Shown piece after piece: positions 12,072 through 63,097 of a stretch of 64,000 nt of DNA. The notes under the pieces were generated by a model. The model had not been told where the DNA came from. It worked only from the letters and a program-made list of their open reading frames with translations, and did not search any database. Location: NCBI GenBank assembly GCA_028287505.1, contig JAQBPN010000019.1, positions 62,001-126,000 on the forward strand, in the 5' to 3' direction. How positions within the stretch are numbered: position 1 is the stretch's first letter; every line of letters begins with the position of its first letter. The position numbers and the translations under genes were made by a program. Origin of the DNA: Fibrobacterota bacterium. GTDB lineage: Bacteria > Fibrobacterota > Fibrobacteria > UBA11236.

Positions 12072-12116
12072 TATAATTCAATCATGACCGCCCATCGTGC
12101 CCGAAAGGTCGAATAG
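12072..12116 (+). promoter_or_regulatory. -10 box and 10-codon upstream frame before dprE1
   Basis: TATAAT at 12072-12077 is followed six bases later by an ATG (12084) opening a 10-codon frame (MTAHRARKVE) that stops at 12116, four bases before the GTG of dprE1. It could be a leader peptide translated from a leaderless mRNA and coupled to dprE1, or a chance frame in a short leader. Confidence 0.3.
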
Positions 12117-12120
12117 TAAC

Positions 12121-13503
12121 GTGACCGTAAGCTTGCATACGGCGGAAACCCGGCCGCGCGCGGTGCTTTCAGGTTGGGGACGCTATCCCAGCATGATGGC
12201 GGAGCAAGCCGCACCCGGATCCCTGGGAGAAATCCCCGCTTTGATCGGCCAGGCCTATCTGCCCCGCGGACAGGGACGCAGCTATGGAGACGCTTCCCTG
12301 CCCGCCTCAAACCATCTCGCCGTCAATTCCTACCGGCTTGATAGGTTCCTGTCCTTCAACCCCTTCTCCGGGGTGGTGGACGCGGAAGCGGGCGTTACTT
12401 TGCATGCCATCCTCCGCATCGCCGTCCCGCGCGGGTTCTTTCTTCCCGTCACCCCGGGCACCATGTTCGTCAGCCTGGGGGGCGCCATCGCCAGCAACGT
12501 GCATGGCAAGAACCACCATCACTCGGGATCCCTGGAGCATTTCATCCTGGAGCTGGAAGTGGCCACGCCGTCCGGCACCTTCGTCTGTTCGCCCGATGCG
12601 CATCCGGAATTGTTCCGCGCCACGGTGGGGGGCTACGGTCTGACCGGGTTCATCACCCGCGCCAGGTTGCGCCTCAAGCCCATCGAAACGGCCCAGGTCG
12701 ATTGCCTGCGCCTGCGCGCTCCCGGGCTCGATTCCCTGTTCGCCCTTTTGTCCAAGCACGATGCCGGCTTCGAATACTCGGTGGCGTGGCTGGACACCCT
12801 GGCCCGGGGGCGGCATCTGGGGCGCGGGGTCCTGATGCTGGGGAACCACGCGCCGCTGGCCGGTACCGAGCGCGACGCCGCGGGCGGGGAGAAATCCGCC
12901 GCCCTGATGCATGCGGAAGCCCGCAAGTTCAAAGTGCCGTTCGCCATGCCGCGCGCGCTCCTCAACCGGCCTTTCCTTTCCGCCTTCAACCGGGCCTTCT
13001 ACCGTTTTTCCCGCAACGGGAAATCCCGGGAGGGCTTCGAAGGATTCTTCTATCCCCTGGACCGGATCCGGGATTGGAACCTGCTCTACGGAAAACCCGG
13101 CTTCTTCCAATACCAATGCGTGATTCCCGATCCGCGCGGCGAGGACGGCATCGCGGCCGCCCTGGCATTCCTGAGCGGGAACGGCCTGGGGGCATTCCTT
13201 TCCGTGCTCAAGCGCTGCGGGGACGACCAGGTGATGTTGCCGTTCTGCAAGCGCGGCTACACCCTGGCGCTGGACATTCCCTTCCGGGGCAAGGAATCCC
13301 TGCGCCTGCTCGATCGCCTGGACGCGTTGGTGCTCACCTACGGCGGCAGGGTGTATCTGACCAAGGATGCGCGCCTCAGCGCGGAAACCTTCCGGGCCAT
13401 GTACCCGGAAAGCAAAGCCTGGATGGAAACTGTCCGGCGTTACAATCCCTCGGCCACGAGCAATTCGCGCATGGCGGAAAGGCTGGAGCTATGGACGGCA
13501 TGA
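12121..13503 (+). CDS. dprE1: FAD-dependent oxidoreductase, DprE1-like (decaprenylphosphoryl-ribose 2'-oxidase)
   Basis: Protein of 460 residues, the length of mycobacterial DprE1. It has the FAD-binding segments RGQGRSYGDA, PVTPGTMFVSLGGAIASNVHGKNHHHSGS and TVGGYGLTGFI, then FFYPLDRIRDWN, PGFFQYQCVIP and VYLTKDARLSAETF with the conserved substrate-site lysine. It should oxidise the 2'-hydroxyl of a polyprenylphosphoryl-ribose. The position of the mycobacterial benzothiazinone-target cysteine (NICVDFP) reads TLALDIP here, so that cysteine is absent. The GTG at 12121 is chosen over 12097 because a -10 box lies at 12072 and AAAGG precedes it at a longer distance. The next gene overlaps and encodes the DprE2-type reductase. 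Confidence 0.9.
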   Translation: MTVSLHTAETRPRAVLSGWGRYPSMMAEQAAPGSLGEIPALIGQAYLPRGQGRSYGDASLPASNHLAVNSYRLDRFLSFNPFSGVVDAEAGVTLHAILRIAVPRGFFLPVTPGTMFVSLGGAIASNVHGKNHHHSGSLEHFILELEVATPSGTFVCSPDAHPELFRATVGGYGLTGFITRARLRLKPIETAQVDCLRLRAPGLDSLFALLSKHDAGFEYSVAWLDTLARGRHLGRGVLMLGNHAPLAGTERDAAGGEKSAALMHAEARKFKVPFAMPRALLNRPFLSAFNRAFYRFSRNGKSREGFEGFFYPLDRIRDWNLLYGKPGFFQYQCVIPDPRGEDGIAAALAFLSGNGLGAFLSVLKRCGDDQVMLPFCKRGYTLALDIPFRGKESLRLLDRLDALVLTYGGRVYLTKDARLSAETFRAMYPESKAWMETVRRYNPSATSNSRMAERLELWTA

Positions 13504-14261
13504 CCGGAGCCGGGCCCGCGCACTCCGCCAAGGCGGGCATCGTCCTGTTCGGGGCCACTTCCGGAATCGCGCGCGCCGTGGCAGCGCGTTTCGCGGCCGC
13601 GGGGGAATCCCTGATCCTGATCGGCCGGGACGGGGCCGCCCTGGAGGCCATGGCGCTGGATCTGGAAAAGACCCTGGGAGCCAAGCCCGCCTGCATCGTA
13701 TGGGACGTGCTGGATTTTCCGGGCCATGCCGCGCGGTTCCGGGCGCTCACCACGGTCCATTCGCTCAAAGGCGTGTTCATGGCCGCCGGTATATTGTTTC
13801 CCCAGGACGAGTGCGATCGCGATCCGGAAAAGACCCGCCTGACCCTGGAAACGAACCTGACGGGACCGGCGGTCATCCTGGACATGTTCGCCGGGTATTT
13901 CCGCCAGCGGGGATCCGGCTTCATCAGTTGCGTGTCCTCGGTGGCGGGCGATCGCGGCCGCGGCAAGGTTTTGGCATACGCCGCGGCCAAGGCGGGCCTT
14001 TCGGCTTATCTGGCGGGACTGCGCCACCGTTTGGCGGGAACCGGCGTGTTCGTGCAGACCGTCAAGCCTGGATTCGTGCGCACGCGCATGGCCGCGGGCG
14101 TGAAAAGCCGGTTGATGGCCGAACCGGACCGGGTGGCCCTGGACATCACCACGGCCATCCGCGATAGGCGCGAAGTGATCTACACGCCCTGGATCTGGAA
14201 ATGGATCATGCTGATCATCAAGTCCATTCCCGCCCCCGTCTTCCGCAGGCTGAAGCTGTGA
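13491..14261 (+). CDS. dprE2: SDR reductase, DprE2-like (decaprenylphosphoryl-2-keto-ribose reductase)
   Basis: Short-chain reductase of 256 residues, close to the 254 of mycobacterial DprE2. The cofactor motif is GATSGIARAVA near the N-terminus, SCVSSVAG carries the active-site serine, and YAAAKAG is the Tyr-x-x-x-Lys site; TVKPGFVRTRM follows. A hydrophobic C-terminus (WIWKWIMLIIKSIP) may touch the membrane, fitting a lipid-linked substrate. With the upstream oxidase it would turn polyprenylphosphoryl-ribose into the arabinose epimer through the 2-keto intermediate. The start overlaps the oxidase gene by 13 bases (ATG at 13491, AAGG eight bases before); the ATG at 13500 in an ATGA overlap is the alternative. 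Confidence 0.88.
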   Translation: MDGMTGAGPAHSAKAGIVLFGATSGIARAVAARFAAAGESLILIGRDGAALEAMALDLEKTLGAKPACIVWDVLDFPGHAARFRALTTVHSLKGVFMAAGILFPQDECDRDPEKTRLTLETNLTGPAVILDMFAGYFRQRGSGFISCVSSVAGDRGRGKVLAYAAAKAGLSAYLAGLRHRLAGTGVFVQTVKPGFVRTRMAAGVKSRLMAEPDRVALDITTAIRDRREVIYTPWIWKWIMLIIKSIPAPVFRRLKL

Positions 14262-14277
14262 ACGCGGGGAGGCGCGA

Positions 14278-15171
14278 GTGAGCGGAACGTCTCCGCGCGG
14301 GACCGCGCGGGCCCTGGTTCGCCTGGCCCGTCCTTCCCATTGGATCAAGAACGCGTTCGTGTTGGCGGGCGTGTTCTTCGCCGAAGATTGGAAGGAGACG
14401 GGAACGCTCCTGTTGGCGGGCGCCGCCTTCGCCGCCTTCTGCCTGGCGGCCAGCGCCGTGTATTGCGTCAACGACGCGCTGGACGTGGAAGAAGATCGGG
14501 CGCATCCCCGCAAGCGCGGCCGCCCCCTGGCCGCGGGCGAGATCTCCCAGAATGCCGCTTACGCCTTCGCCTCCGCGCTGGCCGCGGGAGCCTTCGGCCT
14601 CAGCCTTTACGCGGGCCCCCGTCTCGCCGTGTGTCTCATCGCCTATGCCGCCGTGAATCTCCTGTATTCCCGAGGCCTCAAGCGCCTCGTGCTGGTGGAT
14701 GTTTTCTGCATCGCCTCCGGATTCATCATACGCCTTCTGGCGGGAACCTGGGGAATAGGCGTGGAGCCTTCCCAATGGTTCCTGTTGTGCACGCTGAACC
14801 TGAGCCTGTTCCTGGGATTCTCCAAACGCTACGCGGAATTGATCGACGGCCAACGTCCCCTGGAGGAAAAGCGCGCGGTGCTCAAAAGCTATTCGCCGGA
14901 ATTCCTGCGCGTGCTTCTGGCCATCACCCTGGCGGCCACCCTCATCACCTACGGGCTATACACAACCAGTCCCCGCACCTTGCAGGTGCACGGAAGCGCG
15001 CGCCTGATCTACACCCTGCCCATCGCCACTTTCGGCCTGTTCCGTTACCTCTACCTGGTGATGGAAAAGGGCTACGGCGAAAACACCGTCGCCGACATGC
15101 GCAAGGATCCCGCTATGCTGATCATCTGCATCGTATATGCGGCGGCCGGCGTCCTGTTGTTGGGATACTGA
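14278..15171 (+). CDS. UbiA prenyltransferase, decaprenyl-phosphate phosphoribosyltransferase-like
   Basis: Integral membrane enzyme of 297 residues with about eight to nine hydrophobic helices. The aspartate-rich active-site motif NDALDVEEDRAHPRKRGRPLAAG is that of the UbiA branch that adds 5-phosphoribose from PRPP to polyprenyl phosphate (Rv3806c type), as is RPSHWIKNAFVLAG near the start. A second acidic loop is YAELIDGQRP. It would make the precursor that a phosphatase and then DprE1/DprE2 convert to the lipid-linked arabinofuranose donor; no phosphatase gene is adjacent. The GTG start has GGGGAGG five bases upstream. It lies 16 bases after dprE2, so the three genes form one operon. Confidence 0.88.
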   Translation: MSGTSPRGTARALVRLARPSHWIKNAFVLAGVFFAEDWKETGTLLLAGAAFAAFCLAASAVYCVNDALDVEEDRAHPRKRGRPLAAGEISQNAAYAFASALAAGAFGLSLYAGPRLAVCLIAYAAVNLLYSRGLKRLVLVDVFCIASGFIIRLLAGTWGIGVEPSQWFLLCTLNLSLFLGFSKRYAELIDGQRPLEEKRAVLKSYSPEFLRVLLAITLAATLITYGLYTTSPRTLQVHGSARLIYTLPIATFGLFRYLYLVMEKGYGENTVADMRKDPAMLIICIVYAAAGVLLLGY

Positions 15172-15258: not shown

Positions 15259-16368
15259 ATGATTCATATCTACAACCCCGGCCTGCATCAGGCCTGCCGG
15301 GAGTTTCTGGAGAATTCCCCCGGGGCCGATTATGGCCACGATCCGGCATGGACGGACGTGATCCGGGAAGCCTACGATAAGGAAGCATTCATCCTGGTCC
15401 GCACCGATCCCGACACCGGCGAAGTCCGCGGCATGGCGCCCGCCTGCTACCTGGCCTCGGCCGGCTTCGGAAAGAACCTGGTATGCCTGCCCTATCTGGA
15501 TTACGGCGGCATCCTGGCGCGGGATGCGGAAACGGAGGATTTGCTGCGGGACAGATTGCTCGCCGAGGCGCGCTCGCGCCGGGCCAAGCTGGAGATCCGC
15601 AGCCGGAATCCATTGTGCGGGCTCCCCGCGCCCAAGGATGAAAAGGTCTCCATGATCCTGCCGTTGAGCGAAGAGGACGGGATCCTGGCGACCGGCGCGG
15701 ATTGGAGCGGCATCCGGGAAGGCGTGGCTTGGGGTCCGGAAGGTGCGGCGGCCGCGGACGCCTATTGGAAGAGCCTGGACGCCAAGGTGCGCAACCAGGT
15801 GCGCAAGGCGGAGAAATCCGGAGTGACGGTCCTTTGGGGCCGGCAGGAACGCCTGGACGATTTCTACGGCGTCTTCTGCGTGAACATGCGCGATTTGGGA
15901 TCGCCCACCCATGCGCGCGGATTTTTCGAAGCCGTGTTGCGCCATTTCCCCGGAGCCCGCATAGGCACCGCCCATCGCGAGGGAAAATGCATAGGCGGCC
16001 TGATCCGCATCCTGTGGAAGAACGAAGTGGCCATTCCCTGGGCCTCGACCTTGAAGGAGGAGCGCGTCCACTGTCCCAACAACGCGCTCTATTGGGAGAG
16101 CATCCGCTTCGCATTCGAACAGGGTTGCCGGCGGGTGGATTTCGGCCGCAGCACCCGCGACGAGGGGACCTACCGGTTCAAAAAACAGTGGCAGGCCCGG
16201 GAGCTACCTTTGTATCGTTATCAATTCGATGAGAAGGGACGTTTTCTTGAACAGTCTTGGCACATTTCCCAGGGGAAGCTAGGTTGGACCCGCAACATAT
16301 GGGCGAAACTCCCCCTGAAGCTGGCCAATTCCCTGGGACCGATGCTGCGGGGCAGCATCTCGGCGTAA
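15259..16368 (+). CDS. FemAB-like protein, PEP-CTERM/exosortase-associated (copy 1)
   Basis: GNAT-fold protein of 369 residues of the FemAB-related family found with exosortase and EPS genes. The shared core is LDAKVRNQVRKAEKSG, a D-F-Y-x-V-F-x-x-N-M-R-D-L-G-S-P segment, IPWASTLKEERVH, NNALYWESIRFAFEQ, VDFGRST and GTYRFKKQW. FemAB enzymes move an amino acid from tRNA to a cell-wall or protein acceptor; what this branch transfers is unknown. A paralogue lies at 27358-28392. Compared with it this copy has an insertion of about 20 residues (around 145-165) before the conserved core. TAGAAT at 15198-15203 might be its -10 box. The VanZ gene overlaps its 3' end. Confidence 0.87.
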   Translation: MIHIYNPGLHQACREFLENSPGADYGHDPAWTDVIREAYDKEAFILVRTDPDTGEVRGMAPACYLASAGFGKNLVCLPYLDYGGILARDAETEDLLRDRLLAEARSRRAKLEIRSRNPLCGLPAPKDEKVSMILPLSEEDGILATGADWSGIREGVAWGPEGAAAADAYWKSLDAKVRNQVRKAEKSGVTVLWGRQERLDDFYGVFCVNMRDLGSPTHARGFFEAVLRHFPGARIGTAHREGKCIGGLIRILWKNEVAIPWASTLKEERVHCPNNALYWESIRFAFEQGCRRVDFGRSTRDEGTYRFKKQWQARELPLYRYQFDEKGRFLEQSWHISQGKLGWTRNIWAKLPLKLANSLGPMLRGSISA

Positions 16369-17672
16369 ACGGCGGCCATGGCCCCGGCGATGTAACCGTT
16401 CCCCGCAAAAGCACTGCGCGCCTGCTCTGGGCGCTCTTCTCCGCCTTCGTGGTCTACGGCACCACCTTTCCATTCAAGTTCAATCTGGACTGGCACGGAT
16501 TCATCGCCGAAACCCATCGCATCAATTGGCGCGTGTTGGGGGGCGTCGAGGGCAACCTCATCGTTTCCGACATCATCCAGAACATCCTGCTCTTCATCCC
16601 TTTCGGTTTCCTGGGCTACTTCTCGCTCATCTATAAGCGATCCAGCGCGAACAAGATCCGCATCGTGCTGGCGGGCGCGGTCCTGAGCGCGTCGGTGGAA
16701 TTCCTGCAGATTTTCTCACCATCCCGGTATCCGGCCTTGTCCGATATCGTCTTCAACACCCTGGGCACCGCCATAGGTCTGGCCTTGGGGGTGGCGCTGA
16801 AAAAATCCGTGCTCGATTTCAAATCGAATCCCATCGCCCGGCGGTTCCTGGACGCGGAATCGGCCTTTCCCTCCCTGGTGTTTCTCATCCTGGTGGTGGC
16901 GGGTTGCTGGGAGCCCTTCGATTTCTCCCTGGACTTGGGCGTGGTGTGGGGCCATGTCAAACCCCTGATCACGCATCCGATCCGCTTTACCCGCCCCGAC
17001 GACGATATGATCAATTTCATCCGCTACCTGCTGACCACCCTGTTCGTGTGCCGGATGGCCAGGGAATCGGGCATCCGCCGTCCGGTCCTGGCGGGATCGA
17101 CCCTGATGGCAATCCTGGCGGTGGGGTTGGAAGCCTCCCAGGTCATCATCCAATCCCGATCCCCGGAGGTTCAGGATGCCCTGGTCGCCTTGGCCGGCGT
17201 ATGCGGCGGAGCCGTGGCATTCTTTTTCCCCCCGTTCCACCGCCGTCCGGGGATGTGGACGGCCGCAGGCGGCCTGGCCATCTTCATCGCCGCCGCGCTG
17301 AACGCGTTCTATCCGTACGACTTTTCCTCCCGCTACTCCGGTTTCAACTGGATGCTGTTTCTGCCGCAATACGAACGGACCACCTTCGCCTCCCTGAGCG
17401 ATTTCGTGGAAAACGCCATGGTCTTCTTCCCGGTGGGATTCCTGCTGGGCTACTTCTATCCGCGCATCCGCCCCTCGCTGGTGGCCGCTCTGGCGGCGGG
17501 AGCCATGGCCTTTGCGCTGGAAGTGGTCCAGGGTTACGTGCCGGGACGTTACTCCGATGTTACGGATGTGCTGGGCGCAATGCTGGGCGCCTTGGCGGGA
17601 GGCCTGGCCCTGACCCGGGGTTGGCCGGCCTTCCGGGAATACATGCGGCAGGATGAGGACAGCCAGGTATGA
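16284..17672 (+). CDS. Tandem VanZ-like membrane protein
   Basis: Membrane protein of about 462 residues with two VanZ-like units. The first (LLWALFSAFVVYGTTFPF through SDIIQNILLFIPFGFLGY to EFLQIFSPSRYPALSDIVFNTLG) and the second (YPYDFSSRYSGFNWMLF through SDFVENAMVFFPVGFLLGY to EVVQGYVPGRYSDVTDVLGAMLG) repeat the same order of motifs. VanZ proteins are linked to envelope stress and teicoplanin resistance and occur in exosortase loci; the mechanism is unknown. The start is uncertain: a TTG at 16284 has AGGGGA seven bases upstream, an ATG at 16299 has no such site, and both overlap the FemAB gene. The 3' end overlaps lhgO by ATGA. Confidence 0.8.
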   Translation: MDPQHMGETPPEAGQFPGTDAAGQHLGVNGGHGPGDVTVPRKSTARLLWALFSAFVVYGTTFPFKFNLDWHGFIAETHRINWRVLGGVEGNLIVSDIIQNILLFIPFGFLGYFSLIYKRSSANKIRIVLAGAVLSASVEFLQIFSPSRYPALSDIVFNTLGTAIGLALGVALKKSVLDFKSNPIARRFLDAESAFPSLVFLILVVAGCWEPFDFSLDLGVVWGHVKPLITHPIRFTRPDDDMINFIRYLLTTLFVCRMARESGIRRPVLAGSTLMAILAVGLEASQVIIQSRSPEVQDALVALAGVCGGAVAFFFPPFHRRPGMWTAAGGLAIFIAAALNAFYPYDFSSRYSGFNWMLFLPQYERTTFASLSDFVENAMVFFPVGFLLGYFYPRIRPSLVAALAAGAMAFALEVVQGYVPGRYSDVTDVLGAMLGALAGGLALTRGWPAFREYMRQDEDSQV

Positions 17673-18871
17673 AGAAAACCGACATTCTGATCACGGGCGG
17701 AGGCATCGTAGGCTTGGCCACGGCCTGGCGCCTGTTGCAACGCCATCCCGGACGCAAGGTACTGGTCCTCGAAAAGGAAGGCGGCGTGGCGCGCCATCAG
17801 ACGGGCCACAACAGCGGCGTCATCCATTCCGGCATCTACTACAAGCCCGGCAGCTTCAAGGCCAGATTGTGCCGGCGCGGCTATACGGAAATGGTCGCCT
17901 TCTGCCGCGAAAACGGATTGCCCCACGATATTTGCGGCAAAATAGTCGTCGCCGTTTCGGAGGCGGAGCTGCCGCAATTGGAAACGCTTCGCCAACGCGC
18001 GGAAGCCAACGGCCTCCAGGGCGTGACCCTGCTGGAGCGCGGGGGCATGGCGCGCTTTGAGCCCCATGCCGCGGGACTCAAGGCCCTGCACGTGCCCGAG
18101 ACCGGAATCGTGGACTATGTGAAGGTTTCCGAAAAACTGGCGGAGAAGGTCCGGGACCTGGGAGGCGAAATCCTCCTGAGCCGCCGGGTGGAATCCCTGC
18201 GCACCCTGCCCGGCGAGAAGATCGTCACGGCCGGGGACGCGGAATACGGCGCCGCCTTCTTCATCAATTGCGGCGGATTGATGAGCGATCGCGTGGCGTG
18301 GCTGGACGGAGTCGATCCGGGCCTGGCCATCGTCCCGTTCCGGGGCGAGTATTACGATTTGGACGCCACCGGCCGCTCGCTGGTCAGGAACCTCATCTAT
18401 CCGGTGCCCGATCCGGCCTTTCCCTTCCTGGGGGTGCATTTCACGCGCATGATCGGGGGCGGAGTGGAATGCGGGCCCAACGCGGTGCTCGCATTCAAGC
18501 GCGAGGGATACAAGAAGACGGACGTGAATCTCAAGGACATGGCGGAGGTGCTGGCGAATCCCGGTTTCCGCAAACTGGCCGGGAAACATTGGCGCATGGG
18601 CCTGGGGGAGTTCCACCGCTCCTTCTCCAAAGCCGCTTTCGTAAAAGCCTTGCAAAGACTGCTCCCCGACGTGCAGGGTTCCATGCTGACCCCGGCGGGC
18701 TCGGGCGTGCGCGCGCAGGCGTTGCGGCGCGACGGTTCCCTGGTGGACGATTTCGCATTCGCGGAAGGGACGCGCAGCCTGCACGTCCTCAACGCGCCTT
18801 CGCCCGCGGCCACGGCCTCCCTGGCCATCGGCGAAGAGATCGCGGACCGTTACGCCAAGATGACGGGCTGA
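17669..18871 (+). CDS. lhgO: L-2-hydroxyglutarate oxidase (LhgO)
   Basis: FAD-dependent oxidoreductase of 400 residues in the DAO superfamily. The N-terminal dinucleotide motif ITGGGIVGLATAW is followed by ARHQTGHNSGVIHSGIYY and KPGSFKARLCRRGY, both diagnostic for LhgO, then the C-terminal TPAGSGVRAQALRRDGSLVDDF. The enzyme oxidises L-2-hydroxyglutarate to 2-oxoglutarate and passes electrons to the membrane quinone pool, clearing a by-product of malate dehydrogenase-like side reactions. The ATG overlaps the VanZ stop (ATGA), so the genes are translated in tandem, although no functional tie between them is known. Confidence 0.92.
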   Translation: MKKTDILITGGGIVGLATAWRLLQRHPGRKVLVLEKEGGVARHQTGHNSGVIHSGIYYKPGSFKARLCRRGYTEMVAFCRENGLPHDICGKIVVAVSEAELPQLETLRQRAEANGLQGVTLLERGGMARFEPHAAGLKALHVPETGIVDYVKVSEKLAEKVRDLGGEILLSRRVESLRTLPGEKIVTAGDAEYGAAFFINCGGLMSDRVAWLDGVDPGLAIVPFRGEYYDLDATGRSLVRNLIYPVPDPAFPFLGVHFTRMIGGGVECGPNAVLAFKREGYKKTDVNLKDMAEVLANPGFRKLAGKHWRMGLGEFHRSFSKAAFVKALQRLLPDVQGSMLTPAGSGVRAQALRRDGSLVDDFAFAEGTRSLHVLNAPSPAATASLAIGEEIADRYAKMTG

Positions 18872-58691: not shown

Positions 58692-59405
58692 TCAGGCCTT
58701 CTTGCGACGGGCAGCGAAGACCAGGCCGACCAGGCCCAAGCCCATCAGTCCCATGGTGGTGGGTTCGGGAACGGGCTGTACCGATTCCACCATCACGACC
58801 ATATCGTTGAAGTCGTTGTCGCCGCCGACCACGTCTTCCCAGGCCAGAACGTATTCGTTGGGGTTCCAGGTGCCGGTGCCGGCGCCGGGCAGCTTGACCA
58901 CGTCGTTCTCACCCTGGAAAGCGACCATGTGATCTGCAGCGCCGGAGTTGAGGGCGAAGTCGGAGTAGAAAGTGCCGCCGGCTCCGGAAAGGAAGTAGCC
59001 GAAGGTGTTGCCGCTGAAAACGACTCCGGTGTTGCTGAAATTCTTTTCAACCACGCCGAGATCGGAGATGGAAATGGCCACGCCCGCACCGGCGGTCGCG
59101 CTGCCGTCGAACAAGGTCACTTTCTTTGAGGGGTCATAGGCATCGTAAATGCCGAAGGTGTTGTTTCCGGCATTGCCGGCCAGCTCGATGATCATGCGGG
59201 AGATGGAGCCGCCCGTGGCCGTGAGCTTCCAGTACAGGTCAGGGTTGACCTGGTCCGTGTTCACGTTTACGCTGCTGGTTCCGCCTACGGTGATGCTGTT
59301 GAGCACGTTCTGCAAGCTGGTTTCCGGACCGTTGTTGATAACGGTGGCGAAGGAGCTGGCTGCGAGGGCCAAGGTGCCGATGGCGCTGAGTTTCAAAATA
59401 TTCAT
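58692..59405 (-). CDS. PEP-CTERM sorting-signal protein with DUF4114-like domain
   Basis: Secreted protein of 237 residues with a signal (LKLSAIGTLALAASSFA). The body is beta-rich and ends in a DUF4114-like segment (EYVLAWEDVVGGDNDFNDMVVMVE), whose Asp/Asn cluster may bind calcium. The C-terminus is a classical PEP-CTERM: PEP from residue 213 (VPEPTT), the hydrophobic MGLMGLGLVGLVFAA and the basic RRKKA. It lies 163 bases downstream of epsI on the same strand, the nearest substrate of the exosortase. AAGG is nine bases before the ATG. Codon use is less GC-biased than in neighbouring genes. Confidence 0.92.
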   Translation of the reverse strand: MNILKLSAIGTLALAASSFATVINNGPETSLQNVLNSITVGGTSSVNVNTDQVNPDLYWKLTATGGSISRMIIELAGNAGNNTFGIYDAYDPSKKVTLFDGSATAGAGVAISISDLGVVEKNFSNTGVVFSGNTFGYFLSGAGGTFYSDFALNSGAADHMVAFQGENDVVKLPGAGTGTWNPNEYVLAWEDVVGGDNDFNDMVVMVESVQPVPEPTTMGLMGLGLVGLVFAARRKKA

Positions 59406-59568
59406 TAGTGCAAGCCTTTCGAAGTGTCGTCGACTGTACCTTAAGCGAAGCCCATGCCAGTGGAAAAGGGCCTTTTCGATGGAAAAGTAAGTGTCGATTC
59501 AGGGGTAATGTAAAGGAATCCGGCAGACGGGGTATTTTTTTACAGCTAAACCGCCATTTTCCAAGGAA

Positions 59569-60210
59569 TTAGGGCAGGTTTTTCTCAAGTTCGGGAAGCA
59601 GAAAATGCGTGAAATCCTCGATTCTGACCTGAATTTGCTGCTGGGTTTCTCCCCTTCCCTCGGGAGTAAGAAGCCGGACCAGGGAGGCTCCCTGATGTTT
59701 TTCGCCAACCAGTCCCCCCAAAAACATCAAAAGGCTGGATTGCAGGTATTTGGCCGTATAGGTGTTGCCGATCTTGTACCAATAGCAGACCCACTGCCTG
59801 TGGTCCCGGATGTCGATGGATATCAGTTTGGCTGCTACACGTTTGCCGTCCAATTCCGTATCTCCGATGCTTCCCACCAGGGCCCCCGCCCCGCGGAGGC
59901 AGGCTTCCTGGGCATGCGCCGATTTGCGGCTGCTATGGGCGATGTAAGCGACGATCAATTCCATGTAGTTCTGGCCGTTGGAGTAGGTCCGTTCGATGAT
60001 GTCGCTGGTTTCCAGTCCCTTGATTTCCCCGGCGGACGCCTGCCGCTCTTCCACCAGCTGCCAGGAACCGATGGTGTTGGGAATATTGCGGGTCAGTTGC
60101 GTCACCCCCTGGAGCGATTGCCGGAACAGCACCAGATTGGACAGCCCGGCCGAAATGCCCAGCAGGAGCAAGGCCGCCAGCGTCCAAACCCACCGGGCGT
60201 TGCGGGTCAT
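59569..60210 (-). CDS. epsI: EpsI family exosortase-associated protein
   Basis: Protein of 213 residues. After an N-terminal membrane helix (VWTLAALLLLGISAGLSNLVLF) comes the EpsI domain: IPNTIGSWQLVEE, IIERTYSNGQNYMELIVAYIAHS, SAHAQEACLRGAGALV with the conserved His/Cys, and WVCYWYKIGNTYTAKYL. EpsI accompanies or is fused to exosortases and may act with them in the periplasm; its exact role is open. The ATG at 60210 overlaps the exosortase stop by ATGA, so the two are translated together. The longer open frame upstream in this register lies inside the exosortase gene and is not used. Confidence 0.9.
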   Translation of the reverse strand: MTRNARWVWTLAALLLLGISAGLSNLVLFRQSLQGVTQLTRNIPNTIGSWQLVEERQASAGEIKGLETSDIIERTYSNGQNYMELIVAYIAHSSRKSAHAQEACLRGAGALVGSIGDTELDGKRVAAKLISIDIRDHRQWVCYWYKIGNTYTAKYLQSSLLMFLGGLVGEKHQGASLVRLLTPEGRGETQQQIQVRIEDFTHFLLPELEKNLP

Positions 60211-61100
60211 CGGGATCCCCGCGAGGCCCTGGCCGCCTGAACCCGGTCCATGAGCACGCCGGCCAGGTAAAGGCACGTGAACGCGGCGATGAAAATGACG
60301 GACCCGGTGAACAGATGCAGATCCCAGGACCCTACTAGTGGGCGGAACACCGTGGCCGACCCCAGGCCCATGACCAGACAGGAAACCAGGAAAATGCGGA
60401 TGCCGTTTCCGATCACGGCCGCGGGGATGGCCATCAACAGGATCGCCGAGACGTGGAATCTGCCCTTTTCCCGGACCAGCCATGCGTAAAGGACGCTGAG
60501 CGAAAGCAGGGCGAGCAGACTGCGCAATCCGGAGCAGACGTCCCCGACTGCCAATTTTTCGTTCTGGAAAACCATGCTGGAGCCTTGGCGGATGGCCGGC
60601 AGTCCTATCAGGTTCAACAGCCCGGTGGCGAAATCGGCGGCGATGAGCTTCAGGGAGAAATTCATCTTGCTGATGACGAATTCGGGAGGGGGGACCATGA
60701 ACAGCAGAAAGACTATGGGAAACCAGACCACCTTGGCCATGGGCATGCCGAATTGCAGCAGGACGATCCCAAGCAGGGCCAGAACCAGGGTCATTCCGGA
60801 AATGGACGAGACATCCGCCATGCCCGCCACCAGATGGATCAGAATCGCGACGGCCAGGACAAAAAAACCCAGAACGGATCCGGACCGCGGTACCCGCCGG
60901 ATCTTTTCCCGATCCAGCCAAAGGAGAAACAGGGAGATGGGGACGATGAGCCAGCCGTGGGCCATATAGGACTCCGGTTCATCCCAACGCTCGACCATCC
61001 ATTTCAGGGTGGGGAAATAGTTCGCGATCAACAGGACGGAGAACGCGATCCAGGCGATGGGCTGCAGCAGCCGGGGTTTTACGAGATCACTTTTGCGCAA
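60207..61100 (-). CDS. xrt: Exosortase (PEP-CTERM processing transpeptidase-like)
   Basis: Integral membrane protein of 297 residues with about eight helices. The catalytic residues of the family are present: Cys189 in VGDVCSGLRSLLAL, Arg235 in GNGIRIF, and His262 in SWDLHLFTG. It recognises and cleaves PEP-CTERM tails such as those of the two proteins at 24744 and 58692. The start appears to be a TTG at 61100 with GGAAAA about six bases upstream; it overlaps the end of the TPR gene by 14 bases, and no ATG is near. Gene order TPR-xrt-epsI on the minus strand is the core exosortase operon. Confidence 0.93.
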   Translation of the reverse strand: MRKSDLVKPRLLQPIAWIAFSVLLIANYFPTLKWMVERWDEPESYMAHGWLIVPISLFLLWLDREKIRRVPRSGSVLGFFVLAVAILIHLVAGMADVSSISGMTLVLALLGIVLLQFGMPMAKVVWFPIVFLLFMVPPPEFVISKMNFSLKLIAADFATGLLNLIGLPAIRQGSSMVFQNEKLAVGDVCSGLRSLLALLSLSVLYAWLVREKGRFHVSAILLMAIPAAVIGNGIRIFLVSCLVMGLGSATVFRPLVGSWDLHLFTGSVIFIAAFTCLYLAGVLMDRVQAARASRGSR

Positions 61101-62994
61101 GCAGTTTTTCCGCGTCCTTGCGTTCTTCGAACGGCGCCTTGCTGGCCAGGGCGGATTCCAGGTATTTCCGGCCTTCCTCGTTCTTGCCGCCCTTGATCAA
61201 TATGTAAGCCATGTGGTATTGGAAGGCGGGATAGTCGGGCACCATATCCAAGGCGCTCCGGATCTGCTTTTCCCCTTCCTCGGCCTTTCCATTCATGGCC
61301 AGGATCCATCCGATGGTATCCATGATGCGCGGGTCCTGGTTCCTGGCCGCTTTCAGCTTGTCCAGATAGGGCGCCGCCTTTTCCAGGTTCGCCTGGCCGA
61401 TGCCGTATTCCCACGCCAGATTGTTCAAAGCCACCGTGTTCCCGGGGTTGAGCGCCAGCTCCCGAAGGTAATACTGCGAGGCTTTGGTTTTGTCCTTCTT
61501 CACCCAGTACTCCGCAAGCGTGGTGTTGATGCCTTGCAGTTTGGGGTATTCCCTGGAAAGCTTTTCCGCCAGGGCCATGGCCTTGTCGCTCTGGCCGGAT
61601 CTGGTGAGCAGTTGCAGCAGGGCCACCTTGTGCGTCAGGGTCGGCTTTTCCAAAGCGGCCAGGACCTTGGCCGCTTCGGCGGCATTTCCCACGCCGCTGA
61701 GTTCGGCGACATACAGGGTGGCGGCCAGCTCGCTGCGGGGCCAGCGTTTGTGGAGGTCCTGGGCGGCCTGGAAAGCCCAGAAATCCTGGTGGTTGACGCT
61801 GTAATAGTTGAACAGGGCCCATTGCCCGATGAACTCCTTGTCGGGAAGCATCTGGGCCATGAATTCATTGAGGGATTTCCGCAAACTGTCCGGCTGTTCA
61901 TTGATGAAGTCCGTGGCCTTGTTGTCCTGACCGATGGCCAGGTAGGCCGCGATCAGCGGGGGCATGAGCGTGGGACGCTTGTCCGTGATCTGCATGGTCT
62001 TCAACGCCTCCAGGGCGCGGGCCGGGTTCAGATTTTTCATGTGCAGGTAATAGATCATGTTCGCCGAGCTCATGCGCGCGGCCGGGGACGCTTCGCCCAT
62101 CGACTTGTAGACTTCGATGGCGGAATCGTAGAAGCCGCCTTTCACGTGGACGATGGCCAGCTCGGAAAGGGCCTGCAGGTTGTCCGCGGTGGCTTCCCTG
62201 TATGCCGAAAGCGCCTGCTTCGCTTCCGGCAGGCGGTTGGCCAGCGAGTACAGCCTGGCTTTGCGGATCTGCAGGGCCTGGAGTTGATCCGGGTCCGCGT
62301 CTTTCCAGGCATCCAGCGCCGATTGGGCGGAATCGATGTTGCGGTCCTTCAGGTAGCTGTCGATCATCAACAGGCGGGCCCGGGAATTCTTGGGATTCTT
62401 GGAGAGGATCCGGCCCAGGAAATTCCTGCTTTCCACGACCCGGCCCTGCTGGACCAGTACTTCCGAGAGGGGAAGCAGGGCCCGGACCGAATCCGGGTAC
62501 TTTCCGTACAGGTAGCGCAGTTGCTCCTCGGCCAAATCGAGCCTTCCCTGTTTGGCTCTTACGTTGGCCAGGAGAATGCGCGCGGGAAAATACCAGGGAT
62601 CCGTTTCCAAAGCCGAATTGATGGCTTCGAAAGCGGTTTCCGTTTCGCCTGCCTGGAAGGCGAGTTGGGCGAGGATGATTTTGCCTTCTTTGTTGGCGGG
62701 GTGCTCTTTCACGAACATCTTGGTGTTGCGCAGGGCTTCCTGGGTATTTTTGTCCTGGAGATTGACGCGGTTGGTCAGGTCCAGGACTTCCAAATCCGCA
62801 TAGGGAGTGTAGCCGCCCTGCGCGTCGTAGGCCTTCTCATATTCCAGCCGCGCGGCGGTGAGATTGTTCTCTTGGGCGTAGAGGCGCGCCTTGATCATGT
62901 GTTTGGCATGGCGTTTTGCGGGAAGGTTTTGCCACACCACGTAGGCGGCGACGGCAAGCAAGGGTACGATCAATGAGAACAGGAGTTTTTTCAT
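61087..62994 (-). CDS. PEP-CTERM system TPR-repeat protein
   Basis: Protein of 635 residues with an N-terminal membrane helix (LLFSLIVPLLAVAAYVVW) and then TPR units to the end: ARLYAQENNLTAARLEYEKAY, GKIILAQLAFQAGETETAFEAINSAL, ARILLANVRAKQGRLDLAEEQL and others, at least ten. It matches the TPR proteins that go with exosortase/EPS loci, although a lipobox cysteine is not evident here. It is probably a periplasmic scaffold for secretion or glycan assembly. I take the ATG at 62994 (MKKLLFS); a GTG at 63003 is the alternative. It is the first gene of the xrt operon and is divergent from the Wzz-type gene. Confidence 0.9.
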   Translation of the reverse strand: MKKLLFSLIVPLLAVAAYVVWQNLPAKRHAKHMIKARLYAQENNLTAARLEYEKAYDAQGGYTPYADLEVLDLTNRVNLQDKNTQEALRNTKMFVKEHPANKEGKIILAQLAFQAGETETAFEAINSALETDPWYFPARILLANVRAKQGRLDLAEEQLRYLYGKYPDSVRALLPLSEVLVQQGRVVESRNFLGRILSKNPKNSRARLLMIDSYLKDRNIDSAQSALDAWKDADPDQLQALQIRKARLYSLANRLPEAKQALSAYREATADNLQALSELAIVHVKGGFYDSAIEVYKSMGEASPAARMSSANMIYYLHMKNLNPARALEALKTMQITDKRPTLMPPLIAAYLAIGQDNKATDFINEQPDSLRKSLNEFMAQMLPDKEFIGQWALFNYYSVNHQDFWAFQAAQDLHKRWPRSELAATLYVAELSGVGNAAEAAKVLAALEKPTLTHKVALLQLLTRSGQSDKAMALAEKLSREYPKLQGINTTLAEYWVKKDKTKASQYYLRELALNPGNTVALNNLAWEYGIGQANLEKAAPYLDKLKAARNQDPRIMDTIGWILAMNGKAEEGEKQIRSALDMVPDYPAFQYHMAYILIKGGKNEEGRKYLESALASKAPFEERKDAEKLLAQK

Positions 62995-63097
62995 GGGCGC
63001 CACAGTGGGTTAAATGGTATGTTTATCCGAAGAGCCCACCGGGAAATGAGCGGAAATTCAGGCCTTCAAAATTAATATTTATCTTTCCCTATTGTAA

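Follow-up and report, generated by a model that had tools for sequence, protein, structure and literature searches.

The DNA analysed here, a 64-kb window from a genome that named relatives place in the class Fibrobacteria, phylum Fibrobacterota, carries on its forward strand, at positions 12097-15171, three tightly coupled genes. Their products are an FAD oxidase of DprE1 type, a reductase of DprE2 type and a polyprenyl-phosphate phosphoribosyltransferase with the UbiA fold (Table 1). The dprE1 and dprE2 open reading frames share 13 bp and ubiA begins 16 bp past dprE2. The same gene order is found in the readable trio loci from other genomes of the host family. In mycobacteria, the decaprenylphosphoryl-arabinose pathway, which supplies the cell wall of tuberculosis bacteria, comprises UbiA/Rv3806c, Rv3807c, DprE1, DprE2, Rv3789 and the Emb/Aft transferases, and a search of the PDB returned mycobacterial DprE1, DprE2 and DPPR synthase as the top solved relatives of the three products. 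The preliminary description of this DNA had matched three coupled genes to the mycobacterial donor-making enzymes, and HMM scores, PDB matches, conserved residues and collinear loci all agree with it. The sequence evidence establishes what the three enzymes are, that their genes are coupled and that they are conserved.

Table 1. Genes of the trio and of the adjoining downstream string, in window coordinates.
Gene	Product	Position	Strand	Basis
dprE1-like	FAD-dependent polyprenyl-phosphoryl-beta-D-ribofuranose 2'-oxidase	12097..13503	+	NF053785, PDB DprE1, conserved residues
dprE2-like	NAD(P)H SDR, 2'-keto-erythro-pentofuranose reductase	13491..14261	+	NF053786, PDB DprE2, motifs, adjacency
ubiA-like	Polyprenyl-phosphate 5-phosphoribosyltransferase (DPPR synthase type)	14278..15171	+	NF008977, NF008978, PDB 8j8j, residues, trees
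femAB-type	FemAB/GNAT-type protein, XrtA/PEP-CTERM-associated family	15259..16368	+	TIGR03019 218.9 bits (cut-off 260), PF13480
vanZ	Double VanZ-domain membrane protein, about 8 TM	16299..17672	+	PF04892 E 4e-34, two stretches
lhgO	L-2-hydroxyglutarate oxidase-type FAD enzyme	17669..18871	+	NF008726 552.8 bits, cut-off 299

The dprE1 frame opens with a GTG codon, and position 12121, where the preliminary description began, is another in-frame GTG; relatives start closer to the LSGWGR motif and the real start may lie at 12121 or further on. The product matches NF053785 with an E-value of 3e-103 and 346.3 bits, under the curated cut-off of 500, a shortfall that restricts the formal name and not the function; the runner-up FAD family among the NCBIfam models reaches 37 bits. 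The match to the solved DprE1 (E 5e-68) covers residues 12-465 of 468. In a tree built by a quick method, the oxidase clusters among other DprE1 proteins. Residues H136, K138, Q340 and K423 are invariant across 84 DprE1 sequences. A different picture is offered by Cys387, to which benzothiazinones attach covalently in mycobacteria and whose equivalent here is Ala391 (window 13267-13269); the site was located in the alignment by its motif and by what we take to be its position in the mycobacterial enzyme. Among the 84 sequences, this position holds Ala in 78, Thr in three, Ser in two and Cys in the mycobacterial sequence only. Since the non-mycobacterial DprE1 proteins examined almost always have Ala at this site, covalent DprE1 drugs are expected to be selective for mycobacteria.

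The reductase scores 149.6 bits against NF053786 (cut-off 250), and the top NCBIfam model for this frame is the generic PRK07102 with 252 bits, under its own cut-off of 267. Among solved structures it comes closest to mycobacterial DprE2 (E 2e-24, residues 17-255), with the second-ranked SDR ten orders of magnitude behind at 3e-14. A GATSGIA cofactor motif and a YxxxK motif (YAAAK) can be read in the sequence. The first rank of a generic SDR model and the missed DprE cut-offs would suit a reading in which there is no D-arabinofuranose pathway and the trio is of general use: the first enzyme an oxidase of sugars, the second a generic SDR, the third a prenyltransferase of quinone type. Against this, the ubiA product lies above the cut-offs of two decaprenyl-phosphate phosphoribosyltransferase models (NF008977, 250 > 234; NF008978, 229 > 207), while the haem O synthase model reaches 38 bits and the NCBIfam MenA models gave no match. 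It resembles the solved DPPR synthase 8j8j (E 6e-37), keeps the NDxxDxxxD and KRYAE motifs, and shares N65, D66, D69, D73, R152, K183 and R184 with all members of a set of 60 UbiA sequences including the Mycobacterium tuberculosis enzyme. In trees, its partners are dprE1-linked UbiA proteins, the closest being those of Nitrosomonadales (locus L032) and Moraxellaceae (L048 and L063) with supports of 98/91 and 96/93; Escherichia coli UbiA and CyoE fall outside, and E. coli MenA forms a very long branch whose placement is unstable. A quinone or haem prenyltransferase is ruled out by the model scores and the trees, and the grouping with menaquinone or haem O enzymes that the preliminary description had set as its counter-case did not appear. 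The general-purpose interpretation is further opposed by the PDB ranking, headed by the mycobacterial enzyme for each of the three proteins, and by the repeated occurrence of these same families side by side in about 20 phyla, counted over the best 80 of at least 570 loci. We regard it as largely refuted and give it almost no credence.

Downstream of the trio, the femAB-type gene is probably co-transcribed with it. This gene adjoins the trio in four of the six own-genus loci and is displaced in genome G002; none was found in the 12-kb contig of G001, nor beside the trio in the second genus of the family, g2. The vanZ gene, whose true start probably lies somewhat downstream of 16299, is close to the trio in all six own-genus loci, with 55-71% identity. 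The lhgO gene is probably metabolic and outside the pathway; its start overlaps the vanZ stop and its neighbourhood is kept in the six own-genus loci, with no obvious link to glycan synthesis. In genus g2, the trio is separate from femAB-vanZ-lhgO and adjoins nucleotide-sugar genes in G006. As the sole other integral membrane protein of the string, conserved in six genomes of the genus, the double VanZ protein could be thought to substitute for a missing flippase or transferase acting on the donor made by the trio. We consider this improbable: no vanZ lies beside the trio in g2, VanZ proteins are not known to us to act as glycosyltransferases or flippases, and the AlphaFold model (mean pLDDT 51.5) is too poor for a fold search.

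Encoded in the window are Wzx, Wzy_C and nucleotide-sugar dehydrogenases together with an exosortase locus, and in the host's own genus the trio lies within a long polysaccharide region on a single contig. The exosortase locus itself is near-complete (window 58692-63003, continued at G000:C99:127555-131168 of the own genome) and comprises an exosortase (TIGR02602, above cut-off), EpsI, a PEP-CTERM target protein and a PrsT-like TPR protein; homologues of PrsK and of the PEP-CTERM response regulator are found directly to the right of the window.

The preliminary description had listed a dedicated phosphatase and an arabinosyltransferase as missing from the window, and next to the trio they are indeed absent. 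An HAD profile built from related dprE1 loci gave one strong match in each of eight host-family genomes. The own genome has a single match, an HAD-IB protein whose gene occupies positions 16203-17159 of the contig that bears the trio, 57 kb upstream of dprE1; trio and HAD gene also share a contig in G003, G004 and G006. The protein is orthologous across the host family, its gene has that of a priming sugar transferase (PF02397) nearby, and it resembles the broad subfamily TIGR01490 below its cut-off. Because the similarity is to such a broad group, a 5'-phosphatase role is only a guess, and the protein is put forward as the likeliest candidate and as a candidate only. PAP2 phosphatases, the class that the preliminary description had proposed to look for, occur six times, none linked to the trio. 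The HAD-IB gene and a DUF4954 gene form a divergent pair (G000:C99:14210-17159) that is conserved near PF02397 in two genera.

The arabinosyltransferase was sought with several profiles. The Emb family (PF04602) is missing from the eight host-family genomes, the Corynebacterium glutamicum control being positive. In the own genome, no match was found to an AftB-like profile (A5), to PMT_2, which does occur in relatives, or to a Bacteroidota GT-C profile (A4) that comes without a positive control, and the search with an f5 membrane domain, described below, gave no convincing match. GT87 gave one weak own-genome match away from the trio (C117:90202) and is present in three of eight family genomes. 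When GT-C and HAD profiles were run with hmmsearch against all open reading frames of the 161-kb contig, HAD alone was found. As for the flippase, Wzx-type proteins are encoded in the window and six PF03706 proteins are encoded apart from the trio, with no assignment possible among them. Because the own-genome searches found none of the GT-C types seen with DprE1 in other phyla, the transferase of this Fibrobacteria family, and perhaps its flippase, could belong to a family not yet tied to arabinofuranose, although we hold this to be unlikely.

The enzyme assignments are well supported, as is the predicted product, polyprenyl-phosphoryl-D-arabinofuranose. From family identity and conserved residues, UbiA would transfer phosphoribose from PRPP to polyprenyl phosphate, giving polyprenyl-phosphoryl-ribose-5-phosphate; the lipid carrier is probably undecaprenyl. 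A phosphatase, most likely the HAD-IB protein, would take off the 5'-phosphate. On the same grounds of family and residues, DprE1 would oxidise the ribose at C2' and DprE2 would reduce it with inversion to arabinofuranose. A flippase would then carry the donor across the membrane, where a GT-C transferase would place D-arabinofuranose on the outside glycan as a periplasmic decoration. We infer the phosphatase, flippase, transferase and acceptor, as well as all of the chemistry. The surface polysaccharide is taken as the likeliest acceptor because the region encodes Wzx/Wzy functions and an exosortase/PEP-CTERM set. Taken as a whole, the best explanation, in which the trio makes the donor and D-arabinofuranose is added to a surface glycan, likeliest the neighbouring Wzx/Wzy polysaccharide, is very probably correct. 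Counted against it are the DprE1 and DprE2 scores under the curated cut-offs and the lack of a linked arabinosyltransferase.

The same donor could have its main acceptor elsewhere, on a pilin, a glycoprotein or a membrane lipid and not on the neighbouring polysaccharide. Pseudomonas adds it to its type IV pilin by means of TfpW (PMC11841053), and the Fibrobacteria trio is without a linked transferase and shifts context, standing apart from femAB-vanZ-lhgO in genus g2. In the own genus it is nevertheless embedded in the long polysaccharide region, a co-location that is weak evidence either way, and we hold such a different acceptor to be conceivable but doubtful. An arabinofuranose-bearing glycan in the host lineage is a fair prediction from the gene content.

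The distribution of the pathway was surveyed by running two DprE1 peptide patterns over about 85,000 genomes, each standing for one species. This species-level scan matched at least 584 stretches, at least 570 of them encoding DprE1 relatives. The mycobacterial DprE1 sequences that were compared fail to match either pattern, so the relatives found are mostly other types of DprE1. By record title, the best 80 of the at least 570 span about 20 phyla, including Bacteroidota, Pseudomonadota, Chloroflexota, Acidobacteriota, Bacillota, Myxococcota, Chlamydiota and Ignavibacteriota. In these best 80 loci (of at least 570), DprE2 is encoded at 73, adjacent at 70, UbiA at 56 and both at 53. HAD phosphatases recur as neighbours at 22 loci and PF03706 membrane proteins at 11, while three types of GT-C protein occur at 13, 5 and 3 loci; the third type resembles the solved arabinosyltransferase AftB (E 4.5e-13). 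The preliminary description had homologues outside Actinobacteria confined to a few settings, a view that these numbers contradict. The neighbourhoods follow the logic of the Gram-negative Araf-type pentofuranose systems, which were described as widespread in 2024, DprE1/E2 homologues being found where the glycan sugar is D-arabinofuranose, Araf (Kelly et al. 2024; PMC11127046). In the literature we found no report of the pathway in Fibrobacterota. With the gene set common in many phyla, the present locus adds a further case of a pathway already known and is no rarity.

Several described systems can be compared with it. With the mycobacterial pathway it shares the three donor-making enzymes, their catalytic residues and, by prediction, their chemistry, whereas the Fibrobacteria sequences have diverged, carry Ala391 for Cys387, and lack the Emb family and any linked phosphatase or SMR flippase. 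The three-component pentofuranose systems of Citrobacter O1/O2 (PMC11127046) have in common with it a PRPP-dependent polyprenyl phosphoribosyltransferase and, by prediction, the logic of an HAD-type phosphatase; in contrast, the Fibrobacteria UbiA of the host family is without a fused phosphatase domain and its cluster without an assigned flippase or GT-C. The Pseudomonas TfpW pilin system (PMC11841053) is likewise a Gram-negative case in which enzymes of UbiA/DprE type make a lipid-linked D-Araf donor. The gene order dprE1-dprE2-(HAD)-ubiA is shared with the Nitrosomonadales and Moraxellaceae clusters that also hold the closest UbiA relatives. There, dprE1, dprE2, an HAD phosphatase gene, ubiA and a PF03706 membrane protein gene are joined by a PMT_2-type GT-C, which is a complete donor-plus-transferase set; unlike them, the Fibrobacteria locus has no HAD gene between dprE2 and ubiA, no PF03706 gene and no PMT_2 GT-C. 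The wide spread of the cassette implies that the so-called mycobacterial pathway is a general bacterial one, of which the mycobacterial enzymes form one branch. Fibrobacterota joins the lineages predicted to bear surface D-arabinofuranose, and its genomes raise the question of which enzyme takes up the D-Araf donor.

Within the class Fibrobacteria, DprE1 is encoded in all ten host-family genomes searched, from two genera, and in two genomes of a further family, f5, with none in the searched genomes of f2, f4 and the sister family f3. The f5 DprE1 proteins are 41-42% identical and stand apart from those of the host family in the quick tree, where the closest outside neighbour of the host family is a 'Deltaproteobacteria' MAG assigned to Myxococcota. 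These two placements suggest that the trio genes were probably acquired separately by two Fibrobacteria lineages. In f5, an HAD phosphatase domain is fused to the N-terminus of UbiA, and this HAD-UbiA fusion differs from the stand-alone enzyme of the host family. Directly after dprE2, the f5 loci (L025:11800-14082 and L026:3051-5348) also encode a 5-formyltetrahydrofolate cyclo-ligase domain fused to a large membrane domain; this membrane part is 31% identical to a second f5 protein and belongs to no family that we could recognise.
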